Assembly (NCBI GenBank): GCA_018055925.1
Contig: JAGPGQ010000002.1
Coordinates: 1 to 58,203 of the forward strand
Reading direction: 5' to 3'
DNA length: 58,203 nt
Source: Micropruina sp.
GTDB taxonomy: Bacteria; Actinomycetota; Actinomycetes; Propionibacteriales; Propionibacteriaceae
In this document: in pieces, positions 9,144 to 27,327 of the stretch
Layout: each line of letters opens with the position of its first letter
Position numbering within the stretch: the stretch's first letter is position 1
Notes under the pieces: model-generated
Seen by the model: the letters and a program-made list of their open reading frames with translations, nothing else
What the model was told of the DNA's origin: nothing
Database searches by the model: none
Program-made: the position numbers and the translations under genes

Positions 9144-10013
9144 TCACCGGCTCCTGTCCGTGGCCGGAATCCGAGTGAACTCGTGCCGGATCTGACGATC
9201 GGCCGGCGGAGGTACCTGGCGATAGTCGCCGTACGTCGTGGTCAGCACCCGGTCGAAACCCACGGGCACGGGCATCGCATGGCCTTCGAAGCTCAGGGAT
9301 ACCGGGTGCGCGAAGCAACTGCTGGGCATCACCTGGTTCCCGAGCGGGTGATAGGTCGCCAGACTCGCCAGGTATGGACGCTCGCCGCTCCCATGAAGGG
9401 TGTGTGCCCACTGCAGTTGGTGGTGCAGCAGTCCCGTGGGCAGTATTCGTCCGACCGCCCGCATCAGCCGTCGTTGCCAGTTGTCGGCCGGTTTGGTCCG
9501 GAGTTTGTGCACCAACAGCCCTCGAAGTACCCGGATGTAGGTCGACTGGAGTCGCAGGGTGAGGCCGCCGGGCCTCGGCGCGTACTCCAGGGGGAAGATG
9601 TCGACCAGCGGTCCGTTGTCCGGTGTGAGGTGGGCGATGTGCGTCTGCCGGAATCTCTGCTCGCCCTCGACGAGCCGGACCTTGATCACCGGCGACCAGT
9701 AGTCCGCCACAGTGCTGGCGTGCTGCACCGTGTACTTCGGAGCCAGCAGGGGCGGAGCAAGTCGCAGGAATTGCTCATACTCCGACCGCCGCATGAACAG
9801 GTCGATGTCGTCGTCCCACGGGATGAAGCCCTGGTGTCGTACGGCGCCGAGAAGCGTCCCCTCACCCAGGAAGAACTCGATCCCCAGCTCTTCGCAGGCC
9901 CGCTGCACGTCGAGCAGAATGCCCAGCTCGACCAACTGCAACTCCCGAAGGTCGGAGATCTCGGCGGTTGGCCCGGGATCTGCCGACGGCTCCGACGTGG
10001 CGGATTCGACCAT
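9144..10013 (-). CDS. LicD family phosphotransferase
   Basis: This 289-residue protein is a stand-alone LicD domain. Near residue 50 it has FFLGEGTLLGAVRHQGFIPW and then DDDIDLFM, the metal-binding Asp cluster of the family, followed by the DIFPLEY segment. LicD proteins move phosphocholine or related phospho-substituents from a CDP or CMP donor to sugars of teichoic acid or capsule. AAGGGAG nine bases before the ATG supports the start. It shares an operon with the TagF-Stealth fusion and is a paralogue of the LicD domain at the end of the phosphonate fusion protein, so the cluster has two LicD activities. Its donor cannot be read from the sequence. Confidence 0.93.
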   Translation of the reverse strand: MVESATSEPSADPGPTAEISDLRELQLVELGILLDVQRACEELGIEFFLGEGTLLGAVRHQGFIPWDDDIDLFMRRSEYEQFLRLAPPLLAPKYTVQHASTVADYWSPVIKVRLVEGEQRFRQTHIAHLTPDNGPLVDIFPLEYAPRPGGLTLRLQSTYIRVLRGLLVHKLRTKPADNWQRRLMRAVGRILPTGLLHHQLQWAHTLHGSGERPYLASLATYHPLGNQVMPSSCFAHPVSLSFEGHAMPVPVGFDRVLTTTYGDYRQVPPPADRQIRHEFTRIPATDRSR

Positions 10014-10080
10014 GCGGTGACGCTCCCTTCATCTCCCCATGTCTACCATCGTGGTGTTGACCCACAGACGGAGAGCCACG

Positions 10081-10995: not shown

Positions 10996-11037
10996 TCCGG
11001 ACCGGAGGGGACAGGAATGGCGGGTGCCCTCAGGCGA

Positions 11038-12213: not shown

Positions 12214-12678
12214 TATGCCTTCTCCCACGCCTGTGCCCAGTCCACGAGCATCGAGCTCGGCAACGTGGTCTTCTTGACTCCCTTCGCGCCCTGACCCGGC
12301 TTGGTCAGCAGCGGCAGCTCCCAGTCGGAACTGAGGAGGCTGAGCACGAGGTAGTACTTCCGCAGGGCCGTCTTCTTCGTGATTATCCTTGACGGCCTTC
12401 AGTTCGCGCCACGCGGTGCCATGCTGTCGCTGCAGAGAGAGCGGGCAGCCCGTGTAGAGGCAGGGCTTGGCGAAAGTGGCGACGACGACAACGGTGTTGC
12501 CGTACAGGGCGGGTTTACGGTCAGGGTCGACTTGGGGTCGACGGGAAGGGACTCGGAGAGGGCTTCCGTGCTCGTTGCCCCGGCTGTTCGCGGCGCGAGA
12601 TTCATGAGCACCCCCAATGAGACCGCCAGGGTTTGCGATGACGGCTGCAGCCAACGTCCTCAAGGAACGGTGCATCAT
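12213..12678 (-). pseudogene. Remnant of a second secreted GH16 protein, internally deleted and frameshifted
   Basis: The remnant begins at ATGATG (12678) after GGAGAA with a signal-like MMHRSLRTLAAAVIANPGGL. Continuity then needs a change of frame (NLAPRTAGATS, then VDPKSTLTVNP), another for ALYGNTVVVVATFAKP, and a third for KYYLVLSLLSSDWELPLL through to a TAG at 12213-12215. STLTVNP-ALYGNTVVVVATF aligns with STLALNP-VNYGGSGVAVATF of the intact neighbour's Ig-like domain, and YLVLSLLSSDWEL with its FVVLSLLASDWEL near the C-terminus. The whole GH16 catalytic core between them is missing. It is therefore a tandem paralogue that has lost its catalytic domain and acquired at least three frame changes. 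The exact junctions are uncertain. Confidence 0.8.
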
Positions 12679-12859
12679 TTCTCCAAGATCGACTAGCGAA
12701 TGCGGGCTCCGCGATGAGGGGGTTGTCGGCAGGGGGTTCGAGGATTCTACACATCGGGCGCATTCCGCCGCGGACCAGCAGGTTCGTGGTCGGCGGATGC
12801 ATGTCCAGCGACAAGGCCGACAGAGCCGGCGCACGCTCGCGTGCCCGAGGTCCTGCGGA

Positions 12860-12865
12860 TAGGGT
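12860..12865 (+). promoter_or_regulatory. Candidate -10 element upstream of the Stealth gene
   Basis: TAGGGT is followed after exactly seven bases by a GTG (12873) that opens a 34-codon frame ending at 12977, just inside the Stealth gene. It could drive a leaderless short ORF or simply give the Stealth gene a leader of about 97 nt. A hairpin with arms CCCCAGAC (12885-12892) and GTCTGGGG (12899-12906) lies in this leader. Confidence 0.35.
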
Positions 12866-12969
12866 CGGCTACGTGATGAGACATCCCCAGACCATCGTGT
12901 CTGGGGGAATCCCTGGACCAACTGCGGGCGGTGGGTCCGCCCGGCCGGCCGGACCCCGGAGCCCCCTCG

Positions 12970-14547
12970 GTGGCTAAGACTTCCCCGCGCACCCTGCGGG
13001 CACGGTTCGCCGCCTACCGGGAGGCCGCCGAGACGAGGCTGGCCAACGCCTTGCCGAGCGCCTACGACCGTCCCGGCCGGGCCGGCGCCCGCGTCCGCTG
13101 GCGGGAGGTGGCGGACTGGCTACCGGCCCACGCGAGGGACGACAACTTCCGCCGGGTCACGCAGGCATTGGACGCCGCTGGGGTGACCTGGTGGGTGGTG
13201 TCCGGGTTGCACCCCACTGGGCACGTCATCGGCGTCGACTTGACAGACCGGCGGCGGGCGCTGCGGGCGATCGCGGCGGACGAGGCCACGGCGGAGTGTT
13301 ACGTGCGCGATCCGGAGCACCCGGCGATCTGGATACGTGCCCCGCGGATGCCGGCCATTGACCGGCTGGCCAAGGCGCGGCTGCTCCAGGTCGGTGTGCC
13401 GACCCGCTGCCGCGGGCTGGTCTACGGCCTCAACCACGGCTGTGAAGTCGAGTTCTGGTCGTCGGCTGACGGCCGCTTCACCGCCCCGAGGGAGAATCGG
13501 GCGGCCAGCCGGCTCTCGGCCGCTGAGATGGAACTCGTCGAGGTCTGCGTGGCCGGGCGAACGGCGAGCACGCCGATCGTGTTCAACCGGCGCATGGTTG
13601 ACGACGTCACGTTCGACATCGATGTCGTCTATACGTGGGTGGACGGAGCCGATCCCGCGTGGCGGAGCGCACGCAACCGTGCGCTGGCCGAGCAGGCGGG
13701 TGCTGAGTACCACCCCAGCGCCACCGATGAGGCGCGATTTCGGTCTCGGGATGAGCTGCGCTACTCGCTGCGCTCGATCGCCATGTACGCACCCTGGGTG
13801 CGCCGGATCTTCCTGGTCACCGACGGGCAGATGCCCGGCTGGCTGCGTCCGGACCACCCGAAGCTCGAAGTGGTGCCGCACACGGCGATCTACGACGGGA
13901 TGGAAGACCTGCCCACCTTCAACAGCAACTCAATCATCTCCCGGCTGCATCACATCCCGGGGTTGGGCGAGCATTACCTGTACTTCAACGACGACGTCTT
14001 CCTCGGTGCTCCCGTGCAGCCGGCGGACTTCTTCACCCCCAGCGGGCTGGCGAAGGTGTTCCCGTCCGGCAACCGCCGCCCGTTCGGCCACCCTCACCCC
14101 GACGAGCCGACCCATCTGAATCTCACTCACAACATCCGGATGCTGCTGGAGCGGGAGTTCGGGATCACGGTGTCGCGGGCCATTTGGCATACCCCGCACG
14201 CGCAACTGCGCAGCGTCCACGAGGAGTTGGAGCGCAGGTTCGCCGACGAGTACGCGCGGACGCGGCGCCATCGGTTCCGGCACCACACCGACATCGTCGC
14301 CGATCAGTTGCACCACTACTACGCGCAGATCACGGGACGTGCCATGCCCGGCCGGATCCGGTACGCATACGTCGCGTTGGAGGATGCCGCCCAACAGGAG
14401 GAACTCGAGCAACTCGCCCGGACCCGGGATCGGCAGACGTTCTGCCTCAACGACGCCCCCCGCGAGGACGCGACACCCATCCCGGACGATCAGGTGCGTC
14501 GATGGCTCTCCCGGTACTTCCCGATTCCCAGCGAGTTCGAACGGTAG
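12970..14547 (+). CDS. Stealth family capsular polysaccharide phosphotransferase
   Basis: This 525-residue protein has a variable N-terminal domain (about 40-200) and the four Stealth regions: CR1 DIDVVYTWVDGADPAW at about residue 216, CR2 RDELRYSLRSIAMYAPWVRRIFLVTDG, CR3 LPTFNSNSIISRLHHIPGLGEHYLYFNDDVF, and a CR4-like DQLHHYYAQITGRA segment. The C-terminus ends in WLSRYFPIPSEFE, a tail shared with the other Stealth proteins here. Family members transfer sugar-1-phosphate to build phosphodiester-linked capsules. I chose the GTG at 12970 because GGAG lies eight bases upstream; an in-frame GTG at 12931 has no site. Confidence 0.93.
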   Translation: MAKTSPRTLRARFAAYREAAETRLANALPSAYDRPGRAGARVRWREVADWLPAHARDDNFRRVTQALDAAGVTWWVVSGLHPTGHVIGVDLTDRRRALRAIAADEATAECYVRDPEHPAIWIRAPRMPAIDRLAKARLLQVGVPTRCRGLVYGLNHGCEVEFWSSADGRFTAPRENRAASRLSAAEMELVEVCVAGRTASTPIVFNRRMVDDVTFDIDVVYTWVDGADPAWRSARNRALAEQAGAEYHPSATDEARFRSRDELRYSLRSIAMYAPWVRRIFLVTDGQMPGWLRPDHPKLEVVPHTAIYDGMEDLPTFNSNSIISRLHHIPGLGEHYLYFNDDVFLGAPVQPADFFTPSGLAKVFPSGNRRPFGHPHPDEPTHLNLTHNIRMLLEREFGITVSRAIWHTPHAQLRSVHEELERRFADEYARTRRHRFRHHTDIVADQLHHYYAQITGRAMPGRIRYAYVALEDAAQQEELEQLARTRDRQTFCLNDAPREDATPIPDDQVRRWLSRYFPIPSEFER

Positions 14548-14759
14548 AGCGGAAGTCGATGAGGAGTCGCGCCGGGCTCGTGTGGGTGCGCATGGCTGGC
14601 AGCGATCGGCAAGGCCGGTGGTCGTGTCGACCGCGGCCGATCAAACCTGCGCCTTGGACGGCAGACCGTCGCCGTTGGCGAACCTCCTGAGGTGACCACT
14701 AGGCTGGGCACCGCCGGCTACCGTCGCCGCTTCTGTTCGGATACACGAGAGGGTCATCA

Positions 14760-16991
14760 GTGCCGCTTGTTTCCGTTGTGGTCCCCGTGCACAACGCTGA
14801 GCGGCACCTCGGAGAGTGCCTCGACAGCATTCGACGCCAGACCCTCACCGACATCGAGATCATTCTGGTCGACGACGGCTCGACGGACTCCTCGCCCGGC
14901 ATCCTCGCCGAGTTCGCGGCGTCCGATCCGCGAGCGATCGTCCTTCGGGGCCCGGCGCAAGGCAGCGCCGGCGCCGCCCGGAATCTGGGCCTCGATTCCG
15001 CCACCGGTGACTACCTGTCGTTCCTCGACGCCGACGACTGCTTCGCGCCCACGCTCCTGGCGGAACTTCATCGCAAGGCCGTGGCCGATGACGCCGACAT
15101 CGCGCTCTCGAAGTTCCAGCTGTATCACGAGGGCAGCGGGGACTATTCGCCGGCCGACTGGTCACTGCGGCTGGAGTTCCTTCCCCGGCGCCGTCCGTTC
15201 GCGCCGCAGGAGATTCCGGACCAACTCTTCTTCTCGGTGAATCCGGCGGCCTGGAACAAGTTGTTCCGAACGTCGTTCGTCCGGGCCAAGGGCCTGCGCT
15301 TCCAGCCGCTTCGACGAACTAACGACGCCTGCTTCACCTTCCTCGCCTTGGCGCGTGCGGAGCGGATCACCTACATCGACCGCGCGTTGGTCAGCTATCG
15401 CACGGACAACAGCGCCAGCCTCCAGGGCACTGTGGATCGCTCCCCATTGGAATTCGTCGACGCTCTCGAGGGGCTGCGAGAGGGATTGCGGGAGGCCGGT
15501 CTCTTCGACACCTTCGAGCGCGGCTTTGTCAACCAGGCGTTGGCGATGTGTATCACCAATCTCAAACGGCCGAAAACCCCGGAGGCGTTTCTGGAGATCT
15601 ACCACGCCTTGCGCGAGGACGTCCTCCAACGGCTCGGGATCCTGGGTCGCCCACGTGGGTACTTCCTGCGTCGGGACCTCTCGCGGAACTTGGCGCAGAT
15701 CCTCGAACTCAGCCCGGAAGCCCTCCTCTTCCATCGGCTGAGAGACACCACCGAGGTTGCGGAGAAGGCCAAGGCGGACGCCCGCCGGGCGGCCCGCGAG
15801 ATCGACATGCGCGCGGCTGCGGCACCATGGTTCGAGCGACCCGCGGCGAATCCGGAGCCGGCGGCGGCCGCCGGAGCGGAACGGCCGCCGGAACCGGTGG
15901 ATGGCGTGACGTCCCTCCCCGACGTCTCCGTCATCGTCCCGGTCCACAACACGGAGATTTTCCTGCAGCAATGCCTCGACAGTGTCCTGGCCCAGCCGGG
16001 GGTCGCGCTCGAGTTGATCTGTGTCGACGACGGATCGACCGACGGCTCCGGACGTCTAGTGGACGACTACGCCGCCCGCGACGAGCGGATCCACGTGATC
16101 CACCAGGCCAACGCCGGGCTGTCCGCGGCCCGCAACGCCGGCATCGAGGCGGCGACCGGGCGCTACCTCTGCTTCCTGGACAGCGACGACTATTGGCGCA
16201 TCGACGCGTTGGCTGATCTCGTCCGGCGGGCCGACACCCAGGATCTCGACGTGTTGATGTTCGATGCGGTCTCGCTGCGGGAAGAGGGCGTCGACGACAA
16301 GCTCTGGGACGACTATCGCGACTACTACGTCCGGCAGTCACGCGACGGGGTGCGAACCGGGGTCGAACTGTTGGCAGCGATGAAAGCGGACCGAGAGTAC
16401 CGGGCCAGTGCATGCCTCTATCTCGTCCGCAGGCAACTGGTGACCGACGCTGGGCTGCGGTTCTACCCGGGTATCGCGTATGAGGACAACCTGTTCTCAT
16501 TCGGGCTGATGCTGCAGGCCGAAAGGGCCTCGCACACCCAGACGGCGCTCTACGCACGCCGTGTCCGTCCCGGCTCGATCGTGACCACGGGCACCCGCGC
16601 GGCCGCGGCTCGCGGGTACTTCGTCACGTGCGTGGAGATGCTCCGGGTGATCAACGGCCGGCGCTTCGATGACCCAGTGGTCTCAGCCGCGCTCGGCGAC
16701 CTGATCGCGGGAGCCTTCCGGGCAGCGCGGAACAATCTGGTCACACTGCCGGAGGACCTGGCCGAGCGGCTGCGGGAGGTGGATCCGGCACCGGACGCGC
16801 AGGCGATTCAGCGGTTGCTGATGCGGTCCTGGCGGGAAGAGCGGGCGAGCCGGATCCTGGCGAAGCGGTTGAAGCGAGCCACGGGCAAGCCACCGCGCTG
16901 GCGTCGTCATCCGCTCGTAGTGCGGGTCAGGCCGCTGGTGGTGCGGATCAAACGGCTTGGCAAGCGCATTCTGGGGCAGGTAGGCGGATAG
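14760..16991 (+). CDS. Bifunctional-looking glycosyltransferase with two GT2 domains
   Basis: This 743-residue protein contains two GT-A family 2 domains. The first opens with VSVVVPVHNAERHLGECLDS and VDDGSTDSS and has FLDADD as its DxD-like metal site. After a linker of about 150 residues the second opens with VSVIVPVHNTEIFLQQCLDS and carries CVDDGSTDGS and FLDSDD. Dual GT2 proteins often polymerise alternating sugars or extend poly-phosphate-sugar chains. The GTG start at 14760 follows GAGAGGGT. A basic C-terminal tail (RWRRHPLVVRVRPLVVRIKR) could contact the membrane. It ends eight bases before the pyruvyltransferase gene, so the two are probably cotranscribed. Donor and acceptor are not evident. 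Confidence 0.93.
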   Translation: MPLVSVVVPVHNAERHLGECLDSIRRQTLTDIEIILVDDGSTDSSPGILAEFAASDPRAIVLRGPAQGSAGAARNLGLDSATGDYLSFLDADDCFAPTLLAELHRKAVADDADIALSKFQLYHEGSGDYSPADWSLRLEFLPRRRPFAPQEIPDQLFFSVNPAAWNKLFRTSFVRAKGLRFQPLRRTNDACFTFLALARAERITYIDRALVSYRTDNSASLQGTVDRSPLEFVDALEGLREGLREAGLFDTFERGFVNQALAMCITNLKRPKTPEAFLEIYHALREDVLQRLGILGRPRGYFLRRDLSRNLAQILELSPEALLFHRLRDTTEVAEKAKADARRAAREIDMRAAAAPWFERPAANPEPAAAAGAERPPEPVDGVTSLPDVSVIVPVHNTEIFLQQCLDSVLAQPGVALELICVDDGSTDGSGRLVDDYAARDERIHVIHQANAGLSAARNAGIEAATGRYLCFLDSDDYWRIDALADLVRRADTQDLDVLMFDAVSLREEGVDDKLWDDYRDYYVRQSRDGVRTGVELLAAMKADREYRASACLYLVRRQLVTDAGLRFYPGIAYEDNLFSFGLMLQAERASHTQTALYARRVRPGSIVTTGTRAAAARGYFVTCVEMLRVINGRRFDDPVVSAALGDLIAGAFRAARNNLVTLPEDLAERLREVDPAPDAQAIQRLLMRSWREERASRILAKRLKRATGKPPRWRRHPLVVRVRPLVVRIKRLGKRILGQVGG

Positions 16992-16999
16992 GGAGCATC

Positions 17000-18238
17000 A
17001 TGGGAACCACGCCGAGGATCGGGGTCATGGGTTGCCTGCCCAGGATGCCCGATGCCTTCCCGATCGACATGCGCGAAAACGCCGGCAACATGATCCACGG
17101 CAACGCGCCGTTCGAGATGTTCCCCGATGTGGTCTTCTATCGCGATCCGATGTTCACCCGGGATGGTGTCAACTTCCACGACTACGTGAACCGGGAATGC
17201 TCCCACGTCCTGATCACGCTGGCCAACACCATCCGTCTGGGAAATCCGGACGGCACTCGGTATGCACGGTTCCAGTCCTTTCTCGAACGGTGCCAGGTGC
17301 CGATCGTGATCTTCGGACTGGGCGTGCAGTCTCCGACCAGGGAACTCCCGGCGGATGCGCTGCCCACGGAGGCGATCGAGTTGATGAAGTACCTCGGCGA
17401 CCATACGGAGAAGGTCGGTGTCCGAGGCGAGTTCACGGCGGCCGTGTTCGAGCACTATGCGGGCGTGACCAATACGTTTGTCACCGGCTGCCCGTCGTTC
17501 TTCTCCCGTCCGTCCGGTTTCGACGACCTGGCCGCCGCACTCGCCGAGAACCGCACAGGCCGCGCCTCCTTCAACGGCACCAAGTACGGAGACCCGGACG
17601 AGGAGCGGATGCTCATTCGGGCCATCCAGGCGGACGCACATTGGGTGGAATCGGCCAATCCTGCGGCGGCTCGCTATCATCGCGATCTCCAGCGCGGTTC
17701 GTCCCGGCCAAGGCCCCCGGGCTTCTTGAAGCAGGCGATCCGTCGACGCGACCTGTCGCGCGAGCAGGTCGAGGCCTACTTCGCGGCGCGGTTCCGGATC
17801 TTCCGGACGCCGGATGCCTGGTATCAGTTCAACCGCGAACAGGTGGGCTTCACCTACGGAACCAGGTTCCACTCCAACATGGCGTCCTTGCTCGCCGGCG
17901 TGCCGGCGCTCTGGGTGACCCATGACAGCCGCACCGAGGAATTCACCGACTACCTGCGCGTGCCGGCCCTCCCGAAGGAGGAGGCAACCGAGTTGAGTCC
18001 GGCCGAGTTGAGGCTGCGGGCCGACTATGCGCCCATGTACGCGGCGTTGCCGGAACTTTTCGCCAGGTTCAACCAGTACCTGAGCACACACAGCCTGCCT
18101 GCGATTCCTCCGCCCGCAGCCGCCACACAGATCCCGGAAACAGCCAGCTTGTCTGAGGCTCAGGAGTCAGGGTCGAGCCCATCGATTGTGGGTCGCGTCA
18201 AGCGGGTCGCGCGCCGGATACTCTCTGCGGGCGGATGA
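17000..18238 (+). CDS. Polysaccharide pyruvyl transferase family protein
   Basis: This 412-residue protein matches the polysaccharide pyruvyltransferase family, which adds ketal-linked pyruvate from PEP to exopolysaccharide sugars (CsaB and WcaK relatives). Recognisable segments are NAGNMIHGNAPFEMF at the N-terminus, PIVIFGLGVQS in the centre, KVGVRGEFTAAV, and the C-terminal signature YGTRFHSNMASLLAGVPAL with the conserved His. The last 60 residues are low-complexity and then basic (GRVKRVARRIL). The start follows AGGGAGC. It is the last gene of a plus-strand operon after the dual GT2 gene and faces a convergent glycosyltransferase. Some members of this superfamily are glycosyltransferases, so the pyruvyl donor is not certain. 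Confidence 0.87.
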   Translation: MGTTPRIGVMGCLPRMPDAFPIDMRENAGNMIHGNAPFEMFPDVVFYRDPMFTRDGVNFHDYVNRECSHVLITLANTIRLGNPDGTRYARFQSFLERCQVPIVIFGLGVQSPTRELPADALPTEAIELMKYLGDHTEKVGVRGEFTAAVFEHYAGVTNTFVTGCPSFFSRPSGFDDLAAALAENRTGRASFNGTKYGDPDEERMLIRAIQADAHWVESANPAAARYHRDLQRGSSRPRPPGFLKQAIRRRDLSREQVEAYFAARFRIFRTPDAWYQFNREQVGFTYGTRFHSNMASLLAGVPALWVTHDSRTEEFTDYLRVPALPKEEATELSPAELRLRADYAPMYAALPELFARFNQYLSTHSLPAIPPPAAATQIPETASLSEAQESGSSPSIVGRVKRVARRILSAGG

Positions 18239-18356
18239 ACCCGACTCGATCCACCGCTCGGGCGGGGACGCGAGGGGATCCCTCGATCCCACCGGGTCGG
18301 GCTACCCGGAGGGTCAGGCCCATCTTGGAGAATAGGCTAACCAGCCCAGCGACCGC

Positions 18357-21300
18357 CTAGACTTGGTCAAGCCCATCGCCGTGCCTAGTTGACCACAACG
18401 CGGTGGCATCGGTCAGTAGTCTTTTCGCCCGAGTCGTAAACGAATGACTCATCGCTACTTCACGGCCGATTTTGGCCATAGCCTCATCGTCGGGGAACGA
18501 GGAACGCAGGCCCTCCTCCGACGTTAGCCATCGCAATTCTTCAGGCGTGCGGTAGACTTGGACTGCTCCCTTAAATAGCAGCTCAATGCCTTCCACAGAA
18601 TCACTAACCACCCTTGCCCCGGAACAAACTGCGTCAAAGAGCCTGTTCGCAATGAACCCCTCGCGGGCCATATCGGGATGATGATCGGACAACACCACGC
18701 GCGCCGCCTGATACAGCGCACAAAGCTGATCGTTAGGAAAGTATGGACCCTCGATATTCTCCGTCGGGATATAGCGTTCCCAGAGTTCACCCCAGACCCG
18801 GAGGTCTAAACCCACACCGAGTGCGTCCATGACGACTTTGCGTGGCCCATTCGGGCGCGTCTGACCGACGAAGACCGCCGCACCGTCGGCGCAACTGAGA
18901 GAATCAGGCCGCGGACGCCGGACGGTTGAGAATGAAAGCGTGTCCGTTGCTTGTAGTAACGGTTGGATGTCTCGGGAAAAATGCCCACTTGCCCACTTTG
19001 CCCACTTGAACGACGCCGCGTAGATGAGGTCATAGCCCACTAGTTCATCCACCGTGATCTTGCTCGGATGGCTGAGTATCCACAGAATGTTTATCTTACC
19101 CGGGTGCGGCCTCACGGGGAACTGCCCACGTATCGCCAGATTTACGTCGTCGAGCGCTGTCAGCGGGCCGGTCTGCGCGCTGCGCCTGTAGGTTACGACC
19201 TCTTGACCAAGAGTCTCTAGGCCAAGGGCGAGATCCTCGATGAAGTGAGTGTCCCCCCAACGCAAACCGACTGAGCCGCCAGGTGCAGGGTTCTTGATAC
19301 TCCATCTCAATCTCGGGATCAACTCTCCGTCCGCCGACCGCACCGCTTTGGGTGGTCTCACTACAATAGGTCGCGGCGCCGGAAACATCCCGCCATCGGT
19401 ACCCACGTGCGCTATTTGCAGGCCCAGTGCGCGGTACGCGTCGGAACTCGGCTCTGGTAACATTCCCCGCCATCGACGTAGGAATAGGCGGCGGTTCTCC
19501 TCTATGCGATCACCTCGACCGACGGTCTTGCTCTCATGGTGTTCTACGATTGAGTCCGGAGCAACTGCGAACCGTCCCCCGAATGAGTCGACAGCCCGCA
19601 GGCATAGATCAATATCCTCCGATCCATTGACGAATATCGGATCGAAGCCGCGAAGTTCGACCACCTCAGAGGCGCGCATCAATAGCGCAGCGGCGGTGGC
19701 TGCACGTAGCGGAATGTGTCGCATGGCTCTTCCATCTTCGAATGGATGGCCAGCCAGTGGCGTCTGCGGAAAAGAATCTGCCGCGAGAAACTCGATTCCC
19801 GCTGATTGAATCGTTTCATCAGGATACAGCAGAAGCGGCTGGACGCCACGGATCCACGGATCGTCCAAGCGCCTTAGCAAGGGAGCGAGCCAGCCCGGAC
19901 GCGCGGCCGTATCGTTGTTAAGGAACAGAACATACTCGCCGGTGCTCGCGATGACTCCAAAATTACTACCGATGGCAAAGTTGTAATTGAGTGGCAAGCG
20001 AATAACACGAGTATGAGGGAAGAGCGCAGCCGCGGTGTCGAGGACCTGCGAGACCTCCCGCGTGGATCCGTTGTCGATGACGAGCACTTCTATATCATGC
20101 TCCTTGGAGTTCTCTACAACTGCAGACACTGCCCGGAGGGTCATCGCATATTCCTGGTAGCAGGGCATAATGATGGATACGCGACCCCGTACTCTCTCTC
20201 CCAGAGAGGTTCGAGCGTGATTCCAGTCGAGCAGATGTTTCGCATAGACCACCCACTGCCAATGTGAGGACTCTGGGCCCGGTCGCAAGCCGGTGGGCCC
20301 CAGGGATTTAGGACGAGCAACACCTAGATAGGGCACGGCGGACACTACTGCCTCGCCAGCCAGGCGAATCAGGAGATCATGCTCGTCCCAGGCGCGAAGC
20401 GAAGGGTCGAAGCCTCCGATGGCACGGACAGTGTCGGCACGCGCCAAGAACGCGTTAGCGTCGATGTAGGAGGAAGTTTGCAGTTGACGAACGCCGACTT
20501 CTCCGGTTTCGAAAGAACTCTGCTTCGTGGACTCGTCGAAGTGCCGGCTCACTGCGTGAACCACGTCGGCGCCATTGTCCTGAATCGCCGCGATCATGGT
20601 GCTGAGGTAGGTATCGCGCCAGCGGGCACTCGGGTCAAGCATCGCGATGTACTGGCCTGAGGCGAGATCTAGGGCGCGTTGGTGCGCTTCCCCACTTCCC
20701 GCCCCTCTTACGTTGATGATGCGAACTCTTGGTTCTGCCTCGACGAGTTGATCGAGTACTGAGAGAGTGGGTTCCGTGTTGCCGCACGCAATCAGGAGCA
20801 ACTCCCAGGCAGTATGGGTCTGTTGCTGCACGCACTCGAGTGCTTGACAGAGAACATCTGGTTCATCCGTCACCTTCATGAAGATCGATACCAACGCCTG
20901 CTCGGTCACATCGCAGCGCCTTAGTGATCGGCCTTGTTTGTATGACTTCCGCGCCGGTCTGCCTCCCGATTCCACGATCTGTTTCCGTAGATCGCGGGCT
21001 ACTGTGATCGAATGTTCTCGGGCCACCTTCCACGTCACACCGAGAGCCCGTAGCGAGCCGATGACGGGAAGGACAGTGGCATCGGAGAGATTGTCCAGGA
21101 AGGTCGCCACCGCATCTACATCATCGCGATCTCCCTTGGAAAGGAGATCTCGGGGCTCAAAGAGCGGACTCCAATCCGTACGGAGTGACTCCCTAGAGCC
21201 GTAGTACTCCAGCATGGCCGCCGTACCAGCAATGCCGGCCTGCGCCCACGAGAGTCGGATATCCCGGCGAACGCGATTGAGTGAGATCAGCGGACTCGGC

Positions 21301-21539
21301 GACCAGTAGCGAAAGGACCGATTCTGAACGTAGTGAGATGCGGCCATCGCCGCGGACTCGAAGTCAATACCCGTCTGGGCCTGATAGAACCCGACGTCGA
21401 ATATTGGTGATTGGGCAAGGGCCTTGACAGTATCATTGATCTCGGCCTCGCCGGCGACAGTCCCATGGCCCCAGCGTCGGCGACGCCAGTCGATGGATCG
21501 AAGACGGCGGATTGCCGAGCCTATCGCTTTTCGCATCAT
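18357..21539 (-). CDS. Large multidomain glycosyltransferase (two GT2 domains plus CgeB-like GT4 domain)
   Basis: This 1060-residue protein carries several transferase domains. After about 210 helical residues, the first GT2-like domain (about 220-410) starts VSIFMKVTDEPDVLCQALECV, with its motifs degraded to MLDPSARW. A second, canonical GT2 domain of the rhamnosyltransferase type (about 450-690) has VSIIMPCYQE, VIDNGSTRE, FLNNDT and GSEDIDLCLR. The C-terminal third contains WILSHPSKITVDEL, AVFVGQTRPNGPRKVVMDAL and REGFIANRLFDAVCSGARVVSD, the CgeB/GT4-like pattern. Such proteins extend rhamnan or other surface polysaccharides. Codon use is visibly less GC-biased than in the flanking genes. 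The start is ATGATG at 21539 or 21536; I see no strong ribosome-binding site. Confidence 0.85.
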   Translation of the reverse strand: MMRKAIGSAIRRLRSIDWRRRRWGHGTVAGEAEINDTVKALAQSPIFDVGFYQAQTGIDFESAAMAASHYVQNRSFRYWSPSPLISLNRVRRDIRLSWAQAGIAGTAAMLEYYGSRESLRTDWSPLFEPRDLLSKGDRDDVDAVATFLDNLSDATVLPVIGSLRALGVTWKVAREHSITVARDLRKQIVESGGRPARKSYKQGRSLRRCDVTEQALVSIFMKVTDEPDVLCQALECVQQQTHTAWELLLIACGNTEPTLSVLDQLVEAEPRVRIINVRGAGSGEAHQRALDLASGQYIAMLDPSARWRDTYLSTMIAAIQDNGADVVHAVSRHFDESTKQSSFETGEVGVRQLQTSSYIDANAFLARADTVRAIGGFDPSLRAWDEHDLLIRLAGEAVVSAVPYLGVARPKSLGPTGLRPGPESSHWQWVVYAKHLLDWNHARTSLGERVRGRVSIIMPCYQEYAMTLRAVSAVVENSKEHDIEVLVIDNGSTREVSQVLDTAAALFPHTRVIRLPLNYNFAIGSNFGVIASTGEYVLFLNNDTAARPGWLAPLLRRLDDPWIRGVQPLLLYPDETIQSAGIEFLAADSFPQTPLAGHPFEDGRAMRHIPLRAATAAALLMRASEVVELRGFDPIFVNGSEDIDLCLRAVDSFGGRFAVAPDSIVEHHESKTVGRGDRIEENRRLFLRRWRGMLPEPSSDAYRALGLQIAHVGTDGGMFPAPRPIVVRPPKAVRSADGELIPRLRWSIKNPAPGGSVGLRWGDTHFIEDLALGLETLGQEVVTYRRSAQTGPLTALDDVNLAIRGQFPVRPHPGKINILWILSHPSKITVDELVGYDLIYAASFKWAKWASGHFSRDIQPLLQATDTLSFSTVRRPRPDSLSCADGAAVFVGQTRPNGPRKVVMDALGVGLDLRVWGELWERYIPTENIEGPYFPNDQLCALYQAARVVLSDHHPDMAREGFIANRLFDAVCSGARVVSDSVEGIELLFKGAVQVYRTPEELRWLTSEEGLRSSFPDDEAMAKIGREVAMSHSFTTRAKRLLTDATALWSTRHGDGLDQV

Positions 21540-21670
21540 AGATTTACACTCTCAAATTCTTCATGAGCGCATCCGGACCTCTCCCTGTAGTGCCAGGAGT
21601 GGGGTGTTGGGAGGGGTTGGCCATGTCTCACTGTTGGGTCCGACTCCTCGTCGGGTGTCATGACAATCAC

Positions 21671-22897
21671 TCATCGATTCTCGTTGTCGGCGCTCCACAG
21701 CCTTCTGAAGTGCGCCACCGGGCTCGACAGCCTACGACTCAGTCGGTACGACCTGCTGTTCGTAATTGCAGCCAACTTCCGCTTGAGTCCCTGCACTTGG
21801 CCCTCGAGTGCTTCGACTTGAGCCTTTGATCGGGCAAGCCTCTTTGTCGCATTCTCCTTCTGCCTATACATTTTGTCCCGGTCCTCATAGGCGCGCGTGA
21901 GGGCTGCGCTCCGCTCCGCTTCCAGCGCGAGAATGGACGCCATAGCCCTGGCCGCGCGGTCCCATTCGAACTGCCCATAGGGGTCTGGAGCCGGATCGCT
22001 CAACACTGCACGCAGTTCCGGGGGTGCCACCGCCCCGTTTGACGCATCGATTGCTTTGAGATTGGAAATGAGCCAGTCATCTCTGGTCAGCCCCACAGGT
22101 GAGGGCTCAGCGGTGCCAAGCGTTCCAGGTGAAGGGTGACGAAAAAGGTAGGACTCCTCCAGGCGGCCGGCAAGCAGGAGTCTGTAGTCACGCATACCAT
22201 GGTGTCGAGGGCTCGGCCGGAGTTTGGGATTGCTTGCATAGGAACGGCCAGCATTTTCCACTTTGGTTCCGAATTGACGCCATGATCGCCACGGAAAATG
22301 CAGTACCTCAATGTCGTTCTGGGGTGCGGGGCGTCCAGCGCTCGGCATATTTACGAAGTGATTTCCCTGCGATACCGAGACATCAGCAAAGCCGACATGC
22401 ACGGCGTTGTCCGTGGGATGAGCGTGTAGTCCAGCGGTTCGAAAGAGTGTGTCAGCGGGGCGATGGTCTCTCCAGATGAGTCTGTCGAGCCCGCTGCCAA
22501 AACGTGCAGCATGACCTGTCATATTGATAACCGGTACAGTGAAGGAGCCGACTTCCTTAGGTGTTCGTTCCAATGCCTGGCGCAGGGTGATTGTGCGATC
22601 TATCGGCAGAAAGAACTCGTCCGCGTCGACATTAATGACCCAATCGGCGTGATGGACGGAGTATGCGCGTGACGCCATCGCCGACACGAGTGCTCCTTGC
22701 TTCTTGTCATGGACAACGTAGTCATGGAGTTCGAGTCTGCCGCTGGATTGATAGCGTGCGAGGATGTCTCGCGTCCCGTCAAGCGAGCCGTTGTCCGTCG
22801 CGATAATGAGGTCGACCCCCTGTGCCAGGTGATGCTCGACTACCGCGGCGACAATGTCTGCCTCATCCCGCACGAGCAACGTCATGACGAGTTTCAT
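21671..22897 (-). CDS. Glycosyltransferase family 2 (GT92/DUF23-like) with coiled-coil tail
   Basis: This 408-residue protein begins MKLVMTLLVRDEADIVAAVVEHHL and continues IIATDNGSLDGT and DWVINVDADEF, the nucleotide-binding and DxD motifs of the Glyco_tranf_2_4 type. Residues about 320-385 form a heptad-like charged helix (EAERSAALTRAYEDRDKMYRQ), and the end, TNSRSYRLSRRLSSPVAHFRRLW, is a tail common on surface-glycan transferases. The ATG at 22897 aligns with the conserved domain start; frames upstream of it run into the preceding small ORF. It lies 10 bases after that ORF and is probably cotranscribed with the methyltransferase. Confidence 0.85.
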   Translation of the reverse strand: MKLVMTLLVRDEADIVAAVVEHHLAQGVDLIIATDNGSLDGTRDILARYQSSGRLELHDYVVHDKKQGALVSAMASRAYSVHHADWVINVDADEFFLPIDRTITLRQALERTPKEVGSFTVPVINMTGHAARFGSGLDRLIWRDHRPADTLFRTAGLHAHPTDNAVHVGFADVSVSQGNHFVNMPSAGRPAPQNDIEVLHFPWRSWRQFGTKVENAGRSYASNPKLRPSPRHHGMRDYRLLLAGRLEESYLFRHPSPGTLGTAEPSPVGLTRDDWLISNLKAIDASNGAVAPPELRAVLSDPAPDPYGQFEWDRAARAMASILALEAERSAALTRAYEDRDKMYRQKENATKRLARSKAQVEALEGQVQGLKRKLAAITNSRSYRLSRRLSSPVAHFRRLWSADNENR

Positions 22898-22907
22898 GCC
22901 TCGAACC

Positions 22908-23159
22908 CTATCGGTTCCTGCGTGGCTGCGGCGCATTGTCCGCGATTGAGGCGGTGGTACCATGAGAGGCATCCTGGATGGCTGCGCCGGTGCGATTGCG
23001 TATGCGGCCAAGGGGCCCGTGCCTCGCCCACATCCCGCGGTACACGAAGCAGGAGCGCGACATCTGTCGGTGGATCAAGCACCTGGCGGCACAACTCATC
23101 CGTCGTGGCTTGGCTCGGAGTCCTTCCCGGAGAATCTTCAGTGTGGATTTGTCGGACAT
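22908..23159 (-). CDS. Small basic hypothetical protein, translationally coupled
   Basis: This is an 83-residue, Arg/Lys-rich protein (MSDKSTLKILREGLRAKPRR...) that I do not recognise. Its ATG overlaps the stop of the methyltransferase gene as TGATG, and it stops 10 bases before the next glycosyltransferase start. This spacing fits an operon gene better than spacer DNA. It has no membrane segment or signal peptide. It could be a genuine small protein, the truncated N-terminus of a longer enzyme, or chance. Its codon bias is not strongly gene-like. Confidence 0.4.
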   Translation of the reverse strand: MSDKSTLKILREGLRAKPRRMSCAARCLIHRQMSRSCFVYRGMWARHGPLGRIRNRTGAAIQDASHGTTASIADNAPQPRRNR

Positions 23160-23821
23160 CAGAAACTGGGCTGGCCGCACATCTCATCGTACGGTCTGCT
23201 AACAGGACCACGTTCGAAGACGACGATGCTGTCGTAAAAGTGCATGGACTTGGTTGTCCGTGTAAAATCCGAAACTTCCAGTTCCGGGTTGCGCGAGTGC
23301 CATGCGTTGAGTGAGTCTGTCAGCGACTTGGCGTACTCCATGAATGATTGTGGGGCTCGATACCCGCCGCCGTAGTTAGGCCAATAGCTCGTGTGCAAAT
23401 CCTCTATCAGGAAGACGCCGTCCGCCGACATGCGTGGATAGACCTCTTCGAATGTCGCCACTTGTTGGCCCATTCTGTGCCCACCATCCTCAATCACGAT
23501 ATCGATCGAACCGATCTCGTCGACCACGGAACGAAGAAAGTCGCGGTCTTCTTGATCTCCGATAAAAATGGTGTCTTTCGGATTGCCGACTGCGGCGCAT
23601 CGGGGGTCGATGTCGACACCGTGGATTCGCGCCGATGGGCCAAAATAGTCGCGCCACATCTGCATTGAGCCCCCGTGTTGCACGCCAAATTCCAATATGC
23701 TCACTGGCTGGCCGCGAAATCTCTGAAAATGGCGATGATATATATCAAAGTAGTGGATCCACTTATGGATACGCCGACCGTGATTCTCGCGGAAATACTC
23801 TTCCAGTGGATTGTTATTCAT
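23159..23821 (-). CDS. SAM-dependent methyltransferase, MycE/TylE-like sugar O-methyltransferase
   Basis: This 220-residue class I methyltransferase has ILEFGVQHGGSMQMWRDYF as motif I, HGVDIDPR as the acidic loop, IVIEDGGH with catalytic/metal-type Asp and His, and LIEDLHTSYWPNYGGG. The ED-HTSYW-GG segment closely resembles macrolide sugar O-methyltransferases (MycE, TylE) and related CmcI-like proteins, which act on sugar hydroxyls with a divalent metal. In a surface-glycan locus the likely role is O-methylation of a polymer sugar, perhaps as a chain-end cap. The substrate is inferred. It is the first gene of a three-gene minus-strand operon, preceded by about 400 bases without a recognised gene. 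Confidence 0.85.
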   Translation of the reverse strand: MNNNPLEEYFRENHGRRIHKWIHYFDIYHRHFQRFRGQPVSILEFGVQHGGSMQMWRDYFGPSARIHGVDIDPRCAAVGNPKDTIFIGDQEDRDFLRSVVDEIGSIDIVIEDGGHRMGQQVATFEEVYPRMSADGVFLIEDLHTSYWPNYGGGYRAPQSFMEYAKSLTDSLNAWHSRNPELEVSDFTRTTKSMHFYDSIVVFERGPVSRPYDEMCGQPSF

Positions 23822-24226
23822 AACTCCCCTCGGGATGATCGGACTGGTCGGCAGGGGCTCCCAGCCTTGGGTGAGTCCGTCTCGCTGGAGTCTACAAGAC
23901 GAATCGGGAGATGCAGAGCATGGCCAGGATGAAGGGAGACCGGCGACCTGGTGGAGGTCGGGGCGGACACGTTGCGGAGGTCACTGAGCGTCTCAACAGG
24001 TGGCTCTGAGGCTCACTTAGTTGTTCCCGGTGGCCTGCCGGCTGAGTCGGCTACGGTGCGGGGCGGGTCCTCGGTCGCTGATGCTGGACCTATTCGGGAG
24101 TGTTGGCTCCCCTCCGCAAGGTAGATCGGGAGGCATCGGTCGCTCGGGCACCTCGGCCGGTCAGTCTCTTCGTGAAGCCCCGCTGGGCATCTCGATCATC
24201 AAGGACCTGTGCGGACAGGACACAGA
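23822..24226. other. Intergenic stretch of 405 bases, no recognised gene
   Basis: This stretch lies between the methyltransferase start and the stop of the upstream Stealth gene on the same strand. Only short frames are open, for example a frame ending SIIKDLCGQDTD on the plus strand near 24230, and none has a recognisable domain or a ribosome-binding site. It should hold the promoter of the methyltransferase operon and may contain decayed coding DNA, but I see no clear terminal repeats or transposase motif. Confidence 0.4.
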
Positions 24227-25846
24227 CTAAAGTGGCCCGGGAGGTCGGTGCAGCTCCTTCTCCCAGACGCTGGGGAGCGGAAAGTACCCTTCGAAGAAGC
24301 GTCTGAGTGCAGCTTGGGCTTGCGGCGTGCTCCCCCCAGAGTCATTGATGCAAAGGCATGTGTAGACGCGCCGTCGGAGCCAGAACTCCATGGCATTCTC
24401 GGACAAATCGCCAGCTAGATCAACATAGGCGTGCGGTATAGCGTCGGGCACGGCGTATCCGCGGGCGATTGCGTAGTACTGGCTGAGCGAACTGGGGAGC
24501 GCGTGATCAGAACGACTGCGGAACCGGGATCGCATGACGGTATCGAATACTTCTGGATATTCGCGCTCGAACTCCTCCAGCACGGTGCGACGTTGTGCCT
24601 GTGGGGTGTGTCGCAGTTTATTCGTGATGGTCTGTCCGAAGATGGACTCAATGAAGTCCCGATTGTTCTTTGCGGCCGCGGTCACGCCTTGGTCCTCGTC
24701 GGCGTGTTCCCGCGGATCGATGAGGGCCGGTGACGGGAACACCTTGAGTAGGCCATTGCCGTGGAAGAATGCTTCCGGTCGGACCGGGGCACCGAACAAC
24801 ATGTCGTCGTTGAAGTACAAGTAGTGATCGGCTAGGCCAGGAATGTGGTGCAGTTGCGACTCGATCGCATGAGAGTTGAATGCGGGAAGCGCTGAAACAT
24901 CGGCGAAAATGTCACGGTGATCGATGACCTGTAGACGCTCGTCCGGCAAGAGCCAAGCCGGCACCTGAGCGTCAGTCACTATCCATACGCGTCGCACCCA
25001 GTTCGCAAATTGTTGGACCGAACGTAGTGAGTATCGTAGTTCGTCACGGCTCTCGAAGCGGGCGGAAATAGCTGAGTCGGAGCTGTGCGATATGGGTGAC
25101 AGTCCGTTCCCGAGAAATTCCTGCTTGCGGGATTTCCACGTCGGGTCGTCGCCGTCGACCCAGGTGTAGACGATGTCTACTGGCTCTGTGACGGTGAGCA
25201 GATGTGGCCGCGTAGCGGGTAGGCGATGATCATTCTCCTGAGCCTCGGCCCAGGTTCGGGGGCTAACGTAGTTCAGGACGCCGTTCGGCTGACGAGTGGT
25301 CAGCGCACCTTTGGGCAGGGGGCCGGCCATGCCCGGCAGTCCATCGCCATCCTCATCCCACAGGTCGAGCAGGACTCCCTGGTTGTGCCGACTAAGTAGT
25401 CGCCCTTCTTTGGTTATCAGATGCCGGCTGACTACCAAACCGGTGGCTACAGGCGGTACCGGGAGCGGCCAGGCTGCTGGAAACGCCGCGGCGGTGACGC
25501 CGTACAGATGTGGCGATAGCCAGCAGGATGCCGTCGCTGGGTGAGCGGCTATCGCCTTCCGTGCTGCGCCGGCGTCGTTGTGGCGAATCGCAATCGTCGG
25601 ACGTAGCGGTACATCGTCGGGCAGGATCAGATGTTCGATGCCTGCGGTGCTCAACGCTCCGGAGACGGCCTTGGTGAGTTCTGCCAGGTAGGCCCAATGA
25701 TCATGCGTCGCGACAACCTGGCGATAGCGGCCGAGGGCCCGCTGGGTACTGCGGTGAGCGATGTTCCCCGAACGTCGCTGGAGTCTCCAGATCCGCAATC
25801 GGGTTCGGCGGGCGAAGTTGCGGACGCGTTGCGCGGGATGGCTCAT
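24227..25846 (-). CDS. Stealth family phosphotransferase
   Basis: This 539-residue protein has a basic N-terminus, a variable domain of about 200 residues, and then the Stealth core: CR1 VDIVYTWVDGDDPTW, CR2 RDELRYSLRSVQQFANWVRRVWIVTDA, CR3 LPAFNSHAIESQLHHIPGLADHYLYFNDDMLFG and a CR4-like SSLSQYYAIARGYA. The tail FFEGYFPLPSVWEKEL matches the other copies. The predicted reaction is transfer of a hexose-1-phosphate to a growing capsule chain. The ATG at 25846 overlaps the stop of the preceding Stealth gene (ATGA), so the two are coupled and may act on the same chain. Base composition is lower in GC than the housekeeping genes to the right. Confidence 0.92.
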   Translation of the reverse strand: MSHPAQRVRNFARRTRLRIWRLQRRSGNIAHRSTQRALGRYRQVVATHDHWAYLAELTKAVSGALSTAGIEHLILPDDVPLRPTIAIRHNDAGAARKAIAAHPATASCWLSPHLYGVTAAAFPAAWPLPVPPVATGLVVSRHLITKEGRLLSRHNQGVLLDLWDEDGDGLPGMAGPLPKGALTTRQPNGVLNYVSPRTWAEAQENDHRLPATRPHLLTVTEPVDIVYTWVDGDDPTWKSRKQEFLGNGLSPISHSSDSAISARFESRDELRYSLRSVQQFANWVRRVWIVTDAQVPAWLLPDERLQVIDHRDIFADVSALPAFNSHAIESQLHHIPGLADHYLYFNDDMLFGAPVRPEAFFHGNGLLKVFPSPALIDPREHADEDQGVTAAAKNNRDFIESIFGQTITNKLRHTPQAQRRTVLEEFEREYPEVFDTVMRSRFRSRSDHALPSSLSQYYAIARGYAVPDAIPHAYVDLAGDLSENAMEFWLRRRVYTCLCINDSGGSTPQAQAALRRFFEGYFPLPSVWEKELHRPPGPL

Positions 25847-27327
25847 GGCAACTCGAACGGGCTGGGCAACGGGAAATATTCTTCCAGAAATGTGGTCACT
25901 TGATCGTTGGGAACCCGATCCATGCTGACGTCGTTTACGCAGAACGCCTTGAACGGGCGCCCATCCCGTAGTTCGGCGAAGTACTCGGCGGCAAAGGGCG
26001 ATGCAATGTCGATATAGCGGAAGGATAGGGATCCGGGCGTGGCGAGCCCCAAAGCGTACGCATGGTAGTGGCCGAGCTCGGAAGCGACTGAAATGTCCGT
26101 AGGGCTGCGGAAGCGTTGCTTGGCGACCTGATCGAACACATCGGGTCGCCGGTGTTCAAGATCCTGCAGGCTTGAGCGCCGGTGCGCGTGAGGCACATGT
26201 TGCATCCGGTGTGTGGTGGTGCGTTTCCAGAGATCCTCTATGAGGGTGCGGTTGTTGCGCGCTGCCAGCATCGCCCCATTGCGTGGATTCTTGTCCGGTT
26301 CGCGATCGATGGCTACGTTGGAGATCATGAATTTGGCGATGCCGTTGCCATGGAAGAAATCCTGGGGCTCCACCGGGCGGCCGAAGAAAACATCGTCGTT
26401 CAGATAGAGAAAGTGCTCAGCAAGCCCGTTGATATGATGGAGTTGCGATTCGATGGCGTGCGAATTGAACGTCGGCAAGGCAGACGTGTCACTGAAGATC
26501 TCGTCGTGCGGCACCACTGTCACTCGGGGGTGGGCAATGTCGAGCCACGTCGGCACTTGCCCAGAGGTCACAATCCAGATGTGTCGCACCCAGTTGGCGT
26601 ACATGGCGAGTGAACGGAGCGAGTATCGGAGTTCCCCGCGGTCCGTCGTGCGCGATGGGCTGAGAGCGTCTGTGGCCAGTTTGGCGTCCGGACGGACGCG
26701 GGCGCGTTCATTGAGCCAGGCCGGATCGGAGTCATCGACCCAGGTATAGACAACATCGACCTGATCGGTGAGTCGCAGCAGGTGACGCTCGTGTGGTGGG
26801 CGGATCGGCAGCTGATCGGCGCCTTGCCCCTGAGGGGGGATGAAGCGCAGGATGACGGGCATCTCGGGTCCGAGCAAGATCGTGCCGTTGGGGGCAGCGA
26901 GGATCCGGAAGATGGGGCAGGCTTTCCGGTTGAAGGCGGCCGGATCGGCCATCGACAGCGGCTGCCAGCCGTGGATTCCTCGGGTGATGTGCCAGTTCCT
27001 CGCCCGTGCATCGCGATGCAGGGCGCGAAAGGCTGCCTCGCGTTGGTCCTCCGGAATCACGATTGTCATCTCAGACGCCAACTCAAGCGGCTCGGCATCC
27101 ACGCCGGCCGCGACGAGTGCCTGATGCAGAGCGGAGGTGAGGTCGTTGAGTTCGGCCCAGGCGTCCAGGGTCTCGACCACCTCAGGGTGCATGGCCGACG
27201 CGGCGCGCGCGCTCAGGATTCGGCTTGTGGAGCGTATGACACGTCGCGATCCGGGTGGGAGCGCCCGGCCCAGGGCTTGGACCCATTGGCGGAGGTTCAT
27301 AGGCGGCGCGGTTTGAAGATGCGTCAT
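25843..27327 (-). CDS. Stealth family phosphotransferase
   Basis: This 494-residue Stealth protein has a variable N-terminal domain with LTSALHQALVAAGVDAEPL, CR1 VDVVYTWVDDSDPAW, CR2 RGELRYSLRSLAMYANWVRHIWIVTSG, CR3 LPTFNSHAIESQLHHINGLAEHFLYLNDDVFFG and a CR4-like segment near ASELGHYHAYALGLA. It ends with FLEEYFPLPSPFELP. The start at 27327 is a choice: an in-frame ATG at 27300 is equally free of a ribosome-binding site. A TAGAGT -10-like hexamer lies 10 bases before 27327, so a very short leader is possible. It is the first gene of the coupled Stealth pair and the last gene of the glycan locus before menB, which is divergent. Confidence 0.91.
   Translation of the reverse strand: MTHLQTAPPMNLRQWVQALGRALPPGSRRVIRSTSRILSARAASAMHPEVVETLDAWAELNDLTSALHQALVAAGVDAEPLELASEMTIVIPEDQREAAFRALHRDARARNWHITRGIHGWQPLSMADPAAFNRKACPIFRILAAPNGTILLGPEMPVILRFIPPQGQGADQLPIRPPHERHLLRLTDQVDVVYTWVDDSDPAWLNERARVRPDAKLATDALSPSRTTDRGELRYSLRSLAMYANWVRHIWIVTSGQVPTWLDIAHPRVTVVPHDEIFSDTSALPTFNSHAIESQLHHINGLAEHFLYLNDDVFFGRPVEPQDFFHGNGIAKFMISNVAIDREPDKNPRNGAMLAARNNRTLIEDLWKRTTTHRMQHVPHAHRRSSLQDLEHRRPDVFDQVAKQRFRSPTDISVASELGHYHAYALGLATPGSLSFRYIDIASPFAAEYFAELRDGRPFKAFCVNDVSMDRVPNDQVTTFLEEYFPLPSPFELP

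Follow-up and report, generated by a model that had tools for sequence, protein, structure and literature searches.

The stretch of DNA analysed here (the window; 58,203 nucleotides of Micropruina sp., assembly GCA_018055925.1, contig JAGPGQ010000002.1) contains four genes, here called S1 to S4, which encode proteins of the Stealth family of capsule-type sugar-phosphate transferases, and our subject is the domain that lies directly in front of the CR1 region of the Stealth core in each of them. The genes together span 21.1 kb and in all four proteins CR1, CR2, CR3 and CR4 are each matched above the Pfam cut-off, which confirms the initial annotation's count of four Stealth proteins within 21 kb; a search of the whole 3.95 Mb assembly found CR2 matches in S1-S4 only. 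S1 (6269..9079, minus strand) encodes a large fusion of 936 amino acids with a TagF-like N-terminal part, the pre-CR1 module (7232..7717) and the Stealth catalytic core (6269..7231). S2 (12970..14547, plus strand; 525 amino acids) starts with GTG in an open reading frame (ORF) that opens at 12931, and has its module at 13099..13611. S3 (24227..25846; 539 amino acids; module at 25187..25699) and S4 (25843..27327; 494 amino acids, ATG at 27327; module at 26764..27162) are both on the minus strand, in tandem, with a coding overlap of 4 bases. The label "TagF fusion" given earlier to S1 holds in so far as an N-terminal part is fused to the protein, but the match of this N-terminus to Glyphos_transf (PF04464; E 0.041, 13.3 bits) is below the cut-off of 22.1.

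The cores of S1-S4 are 39-44% identical in pairwise comparisons and match the solved CpsY of Mycobacterium tuberculosis with phmmer E values of 1e-55 to 2e-68. All four keep the N-D-D of the active site and the arginine of CR3; the catalytic residues of CpsY are N322, D324 and R419, and N-D-D and R are present in 155 of the 155 Stealth proteins that were aligned, S1-S4 included. CR4 of S1 reads CLNV where the family has CLND. The aligned proteins were taken from 80 named loci and from loci of 394 genomes of the class: 172 ORFs matched the core profile, of which we left out 6 that are copies of the window and 11 in which CR1 was not matched (ten dead paralogues, described below, and one fragment).

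A module profile built from 151 pre-CR1 regions of Stealth proteins outside the window gives 114.4 bits with S2, 50.5 with S3, 24.0 with S4 and 15.5 with S1, the weakest match of the four. The best of the 980-998 scored shuffles of each (987 for S1) reached 10.0, 10.2, 7.3 and 7.9 bits, respectively. By BLASTP only the S3 and S4 regions are convincingly related (E 4.7e-6). Judged from the profile matches the pre-CR1 regions of S1-S4 are one homologous domain placed directly before CR1, and the common but divergent module proposed in the initial annotation is upheld. Its length had been put at roughly 200 residues; a domain is indeed present in front of CR1, but the folded part is about 110-170 residues, preceded in S2 by a low-confidence tail of 40-60 residues. 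The module consensus has N-L-x2-V-x2-A-L-x2-A-G-[VI]-x-[YW]-F followed by V-A-V-x3-D-R-x2-[VA]-L; G-C-x-[VI]-E-F-W and A-P-R-x-N come later in the sequence. The motif written down earlier is contained in this consensus, but it is loose (S1 has SL for AL, S3 has GI for GV, S2 has IGVD and S4 has IVIP) and the last two segments lie outside it. These two segments, an R (R64) and the D-R (D79-R80, both in consensus numbering) make up the conserved patch of the module; S4, which has the shortest and most divergent module, is without the GC-EFW and APRxN segments. Pfam and NCBIfam hold no named family matching the module in S1-S4, nor does Pfam for 78 scanned modules, and a sequence search of the PDB gave no significant match (best E 0.18).

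The fold was examined for two of the four modules. AlphaFold2 predicted S2 (101 rows) with a predicted local distance difference test (pLDDT) of 92.3 and a predicted template modelling score (pTM) of 0.89, module included. With VIA-align the closest structures to the core of this model are GNPTAB and CpsY (Z 32-38); the module (model residues 44-214) is nearest to the catalytic nucleotidyltransferase (NTase) domain of FKRP, of the LicD family (6kal_B, Z 10.8), on which 136 residues superpose with a root mean square deviation of 3.3 and 19% identity; Foldseek gives the FKRP match an E value of 2.4e-4 and a probability of 1.00. The S4 module, modelled alone (99 rows; pLDDT 84.8, pTM 0.78), has an order of helices and strands similar to that of the S2 module. 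All 50 VIA matches listed for it are NTase-fold proteins (Z 6.5-7.2), which include DNA polymerases beta, lambda and mu, FKRP, Cid1 and, in rank 1, ILF2/ILF3 (9GTZ, Z 7.2). On these models an NTase fold is well supported for the S2 module and fairly supported for the S4 module. The two modelled modules agree in fold, which speaks against unrelated N-terminal regions, the outcome that the initial annotation had named as damaging to its claim.

A special closeness of the module to LicD is modestly indicated, by FKRP being the best solved match and by a profile-profile comparison with 19 LicD rows. The latter gave a score of 19.67, not reached by any of 200 column shuffles (maximum 18.97); the 46 aligned columns follow the register of LicD's active-site stretch, with a gap of 12 residues at the Arg-His-to-Asp stretch of LicD. 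Compared with 17 other neighbour families the module scored nowhere above 16.74.

The catalytic signatures of this stretch are missing from the module. According to the accessible text of PMC6965139, FKRP carries an hG[GS] motif and conserved acidic residues at three positions, D362, D364 and D416. Among 154 module proteins neither hG[GS] after strand 1 nor [DE]x[DE] on strand 2 was found once, while Asp-x-Asp is kept in 18 of 19 LicD rows. The loop between the two strands is 7-10 residues long, and in 4 of 155 proteins an acid-x-acid lies inside this loop, before strand 2 and not on it. The longer LicD stretch G-[ST]-L-L-G ... D-D-D-x-D fits none of the 155 modules; its Asp part fits 17 of the 19 LicD rows. 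The Glu of GC-x-[VI]-E-F-W was considered as the third catalytic acid and dropped, as a forced long alignment placed another strand there. With hG[GS] and the strand-2 acids missing in 154 of 154 proteins, the module is best described as a degenerate NTase domain which presumably is non-catalytic.

Separate searches with a module profile and with CR2 were made in the 394 genomes. This module profile included rows of the window, which makes its E values for S1-S4 circular, and the scores given above for S1-S4 come from the profile without them. The co-location count used 91 of about 140 module-profile matches, the rest being weak (E 1.5e-4 to 0.01), and the module was found just upstream of CR2 in 84 of 90 CR2 matches. 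Two of the six without it are full-strength Stealth proteins, in G053 (380 bits) and G085 (358 bits); the other four are weaker (G113, 114 bits; G031, 47; G102, 36; G277, 24). The two full-strength cores (G053:C131, locus L146, and G085:C81, locus L145), being of the same class, are natural comparison cases. Outside the class the module is present in two Stealth proteins of one family (36 and 32 bits) and missing in two of another. In all eight long Stealth proteins scanned a GT4-type glycosyltransferase is followed by the module, which still adjoins CR1; these GT4 - pseudo-NTase - Stealth fusions (L179-L183, L186, L187 and L192) are 939 to 1426 residues long and are candidate single-chain polymerases. 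A search for the module in isolation, which the initial annotation had suggested, found one fragment and no whole stand-alone module. The fragment (G384, locus L144, ORF 631-1881 on the minus strand, a 417-residue frame with no Stealth core) is half a module, covering profile positions 2-96 with 66 bits, and is either a remnant or an isolated module. A module match inside a frame of 9562 residues was taken as false.

It had been observed that the cores are similar while the modules vary. This is true, but it is general: across all pairs of the 155 proteins module identity drops with core identity, and relative to background pairs of the same core identity the six pairs from the window rank at the 49th, 30th, 4th, 54th, 24th and 36th percentile. 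The modules of the window are no more diverged than their core identity predicts. Core and module trees were compared for 53 representatives. Eight splits of the module tree have a support of at least 95; five of these are common to the core tree and none is in conflict, which leaves no well supported sign of locus-specific recombination of modules. Conflicts appear at lower support (3 of 15 splits at 90, 14 of 30 at 80) and are attributed to noise, the alignment being short and fast-changing. Both trees place S2 with Brevibacterium, Brachybacterium and one further genome. S3 and S4 form a sister pair in the core tree (88) and lie close together in the module tree, and S1 is a long branch of unsure position. 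At the resolution of these trees most Actinomycetota Stealth proteins examined have the module as a fixed companion of their core, co-inherited with it and not visibly swapped.

Ten Streptomyces loci (L023, L038, L042, L045, L046, L051, L061, L064, L079 and L083) carry a Stealth-like protein of 542-550 residues whose module is intact (120-135 bits) and whose core is ruined: CR1 has turned into DAVLLW or DAVLQW, R-P-G stands in place of N-D-D, and the CR3 arginine and CLND are lost. This dead paralogue is placed in tandem between two intact Stealth genes in all ten, and the same kind of dead protein occurs in two further genomes. Between dead paralogues the module is more conserved than the core in 45 of 45 pairs (mean identity 83% versus 72%), whereas between active orthologues from the same genomes, counted where core identity exceeds 60%, this is so in 0 of 90 pairs (80% versus 89%). 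The median ratio of nonsynonymous to synonymous substitution rates (dN/dS) of the dead paralogues is 0.23 for the module and 0.36 for the core, and 44 of 45 pairs have the lower value in the module. The module is under selection in proteins where Stealth chemistry looks impossible. It is more constrained than the dead core and probably has a role independent of catalysis.

The best information on what the module does not do comes from CpsY. A near orthologue of 537 residues (core match to CpsY of 615 bits over 319 residues) carries the module at residues 49-205 (72 bits), and residues 1-200 of CpsY are therefore very probably the same domain. As reported in the accessible text of PMC10668966, CpsY without these residues (fragment 201-520) keeps full activity: the Km for UDP-N-acetylglucosamine (UDP-GlcNAc) is 26.3 uM compared with 25.4 uM for the full-length enzyme, kcat is 11.2 per min compared with 4.3 per min, and the Km for glucan is 464 uM compared with 830 uM. 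The donor Km is unchanged, and therefore donor choice does not lie in the module, at least in CpsY; an effect on the acceptor is possible. The position of CpsY Glu305, which contacts the GlcNAc of the donor, belongs to the core and is occupied by Glu in 148 of the 155 proteins, by Ile in five and by Gly in two. The five proteins with Ile are S2 (codon 13936..13938, plus strand) and its four nearest relatives; S1, S3 and S4 have Glu. This position does not appear to define the family, the Ile of S2 would mark a different donor site, and since the position varies in the core, differences in donor are better sought there.

The reading which we favour, and hold to be rather probable, is that the pre-CR1 region is an ancestral LicD/FKRP-like NTase domain which has lost its motifs, is non-catalytic, does not choose the donor, and serves to hold the glycan and/or to dock partners. 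An NTase-fold domain in front of the Stealth core would have lost its catalytic signatures and been inherited with the core as a fixed companion; the degenerate module would neither catalyse nor pick the nucleotide-sugar donor, and may hold the growing phosphorylated glycan and/or dock Stealth subunits and partner enzymes. FKRP offers a mirror image in the part of its description that is accessible (PMC6965139): it combines an active NTase domain, similar in fold to our module (PF04991; 6KAL), with a dead glycosyltransferase-like stem which contributes to the oligomer and binds the acceptor phosphate for the active NTase, whereas the Stealth proteins here combine an active GT-A-like core with a dead NTase. 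FKRP differs in having both hG[GS] and the pair D362/D364, which are without counterpart in the module, and there is no match between the two at the level of sequence families.

Several points weigh against this reading. The S4 fold matches, at Z of about 7, are within the range which VIA calls possibly accidental, and for the S4 module by itself no Foldseek match had an E value below 0.001, the first-ranked being a complex I chain. The profile-profile score between module and LicD is modest (probability about 1%), and one of the 17 unrelated neighbour families scored higher with LicD (21.89 over 14 columns). Plain hidden Markov models miss the link, the LicD profile giving at most about 1 bit on the modules and the reverse search less than 2 bits, and PF04991 is matched neither in S1-S4 nor in the 78 modules scanned. 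Weak partial matches to ORFs of about 440 residues and to aspartokinase/ACT domains recur and could point to an alternative family; they were set aside as unlisted by the fold searches. All ten dead paralogues belong to a single genus, so that their pairs are not independent, and the CpsY acceptor was a surrogate glucan with a full-length enzyme that aggregates (accessible text of PMC10668966). The docking or acceptor role itself is our inference.

A wider form of the same idea, which we put forward tentatively, is that the Stealth enzymes of actinobacteria are assemblies founded on a fossil LicD-type transferase, in which the dead NTase, and in Streptomyces the dead paralogue, would act as interface or acceptor site, the fusion having arisen from a neighbouring LicD gene. 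Such genes are at hand in the window: a true LicD domain with its Asp motif forms the end of an NTP_transf_3 / Fe-ADH / LicD fusion adjoining S1 (5496..6176, plus strand), and a second true LicD gene lies directly upstream of S1 (9144..10013, minus strand). Of five genomes listed with both, LicD and Stealth genes are within about 11 kb in four (G000, G422, G443 and G497), the window included; in G002 they are on different contigs.

It is less likely that the module is a structural cap, which merely co-folds with, stabilises or tethers the core and has no ligand or partner of its own. Its tight association with CR1, its confident packing in the one model that contains both parts (S2, pTM 0.89) and the survival of CpsY activity after its removal (accessible text of PMC10668966) would all suit a cap. 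However, where the core is dead the module is the more conserved half, the patch of R, D-R, GC-x-[VI]-E-F-W and A-P-R-x-N is more than a cap would need, and two full-strength Stealth proteins of the class do without the module.

The model of the initial annotation, an exchangeable specificity module which sets the donor and/or the acceptor of each enzyme, we regard as improbable. Modules do diverge faster than cores, and the fall of the glucan Km from 830 to 464 uM without CpsY residues 1-200 (accessible text of PMC10668966) makes a part in acceptor choice possible. The donor half of the claim is not supported: the truncation leaves the UDP-GlcNAc Km as it was (same source), the varying donor contact is in the core, module divergence is what core identity predicts, and no supported swapping is seen. 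Moreover, the module is kept on dead cores. That the module is still an active LicD-like polyol- or choline-phosphate transferase, making the proteins bifunctional, would fit the FKRP fold match and the adjoining true LicD genes but is hardly credible with hG[GS] and the strand-2 acid-x-acid each in 0 of 154 proteins and with S4 devoid of the GC-EFW and APRxN segments.

The degenerate, non-catalytic NTase module that we favour can be compared with several known systems. CpsY (PDB 8J2N; PMC10668966) has the same Stealth core, and its near orthologue has the same pre-CR1 module; the solved part of CpsY is residues 201-520, the accessible text gives no fold for residues 1-200, and S2 has Ile for its Glu305. 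The core of GNPTAB, the GlcNAc-1-phosphotransferase (9BGF, 7SJ2), has a fold like that of the S2 core (Z about 37), and the matches listed align from S2 model residue 196-213 on, which is the core and not the module. TagF-like capsule polymerases (PMC5974469) and CpsA/CpsC/CpsD (PMC11666461) are likewise multidomain transferases which build phosphate-containing capsules, and CpsC is a LicD enzyme working beside TagF-like enzymes (PMC11666461, PMC5974469); the accessible parts of these descriptions mention no NTase-like domain fused to a Stealth core. In the open-licence literature we found no paper describing this pre-CR1 domain; Stealth enzymes and NTase domains are known, but their combination and the degenerate state were not found described there. 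ILF2/ILF3, the top structural match of the S4 module, belongs to a eukaryotic RNA-binding context and no kinship is claimed. The two are catalytically dead NTase-fold dimerisation domains and thus a precedent for the proposed role.

Beside the Stealth genes there is a complete phosphonate set (1094-6272, plus strand), consisting of a cytidylyltransferase-phosphoenolpyruvate mutase fusion (TIGR02320, 379 bits), a phosphonopyruvate decarboxylase (TIGR03297, 435 bits) and, as third member, the NTP_transf_3 / Fe-ADH / LicD fusion of 913 residues. The first of these resembles the Fom1 type, which according to the accessible text of PMC6697681 makes CMP-hydroxyethylphosphonate, and therefore the polymer of the locus may carry phosphonate. 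The region 10039-18238 encodes a GT-D fold glycosyltransferase, a GH16 hydrolase, a double GT2 and a pyruvyl transferase, glycan genes which are consistent with one phosphoglycan locus.

Human GNPTAB is a Stealth protein, as is CpsY, the capsule enzyme of the tuberculosis bacterium, and neither Pfam nor NCBIfam names a domain for the first 200 residues of CpsY-type enzymes. Their identity as a degenerate NTase domain of LicD/FKRP-like type would give them a testable role, in acceptor or subunit docking. The module comes off the list of likely determinants of donor specificity, for which the core, at the position of CpsY Glu305, is indicated instead, and the active-dead-active triads of Streptomyces offer a simple genetic system in which the function of the module may be studied.

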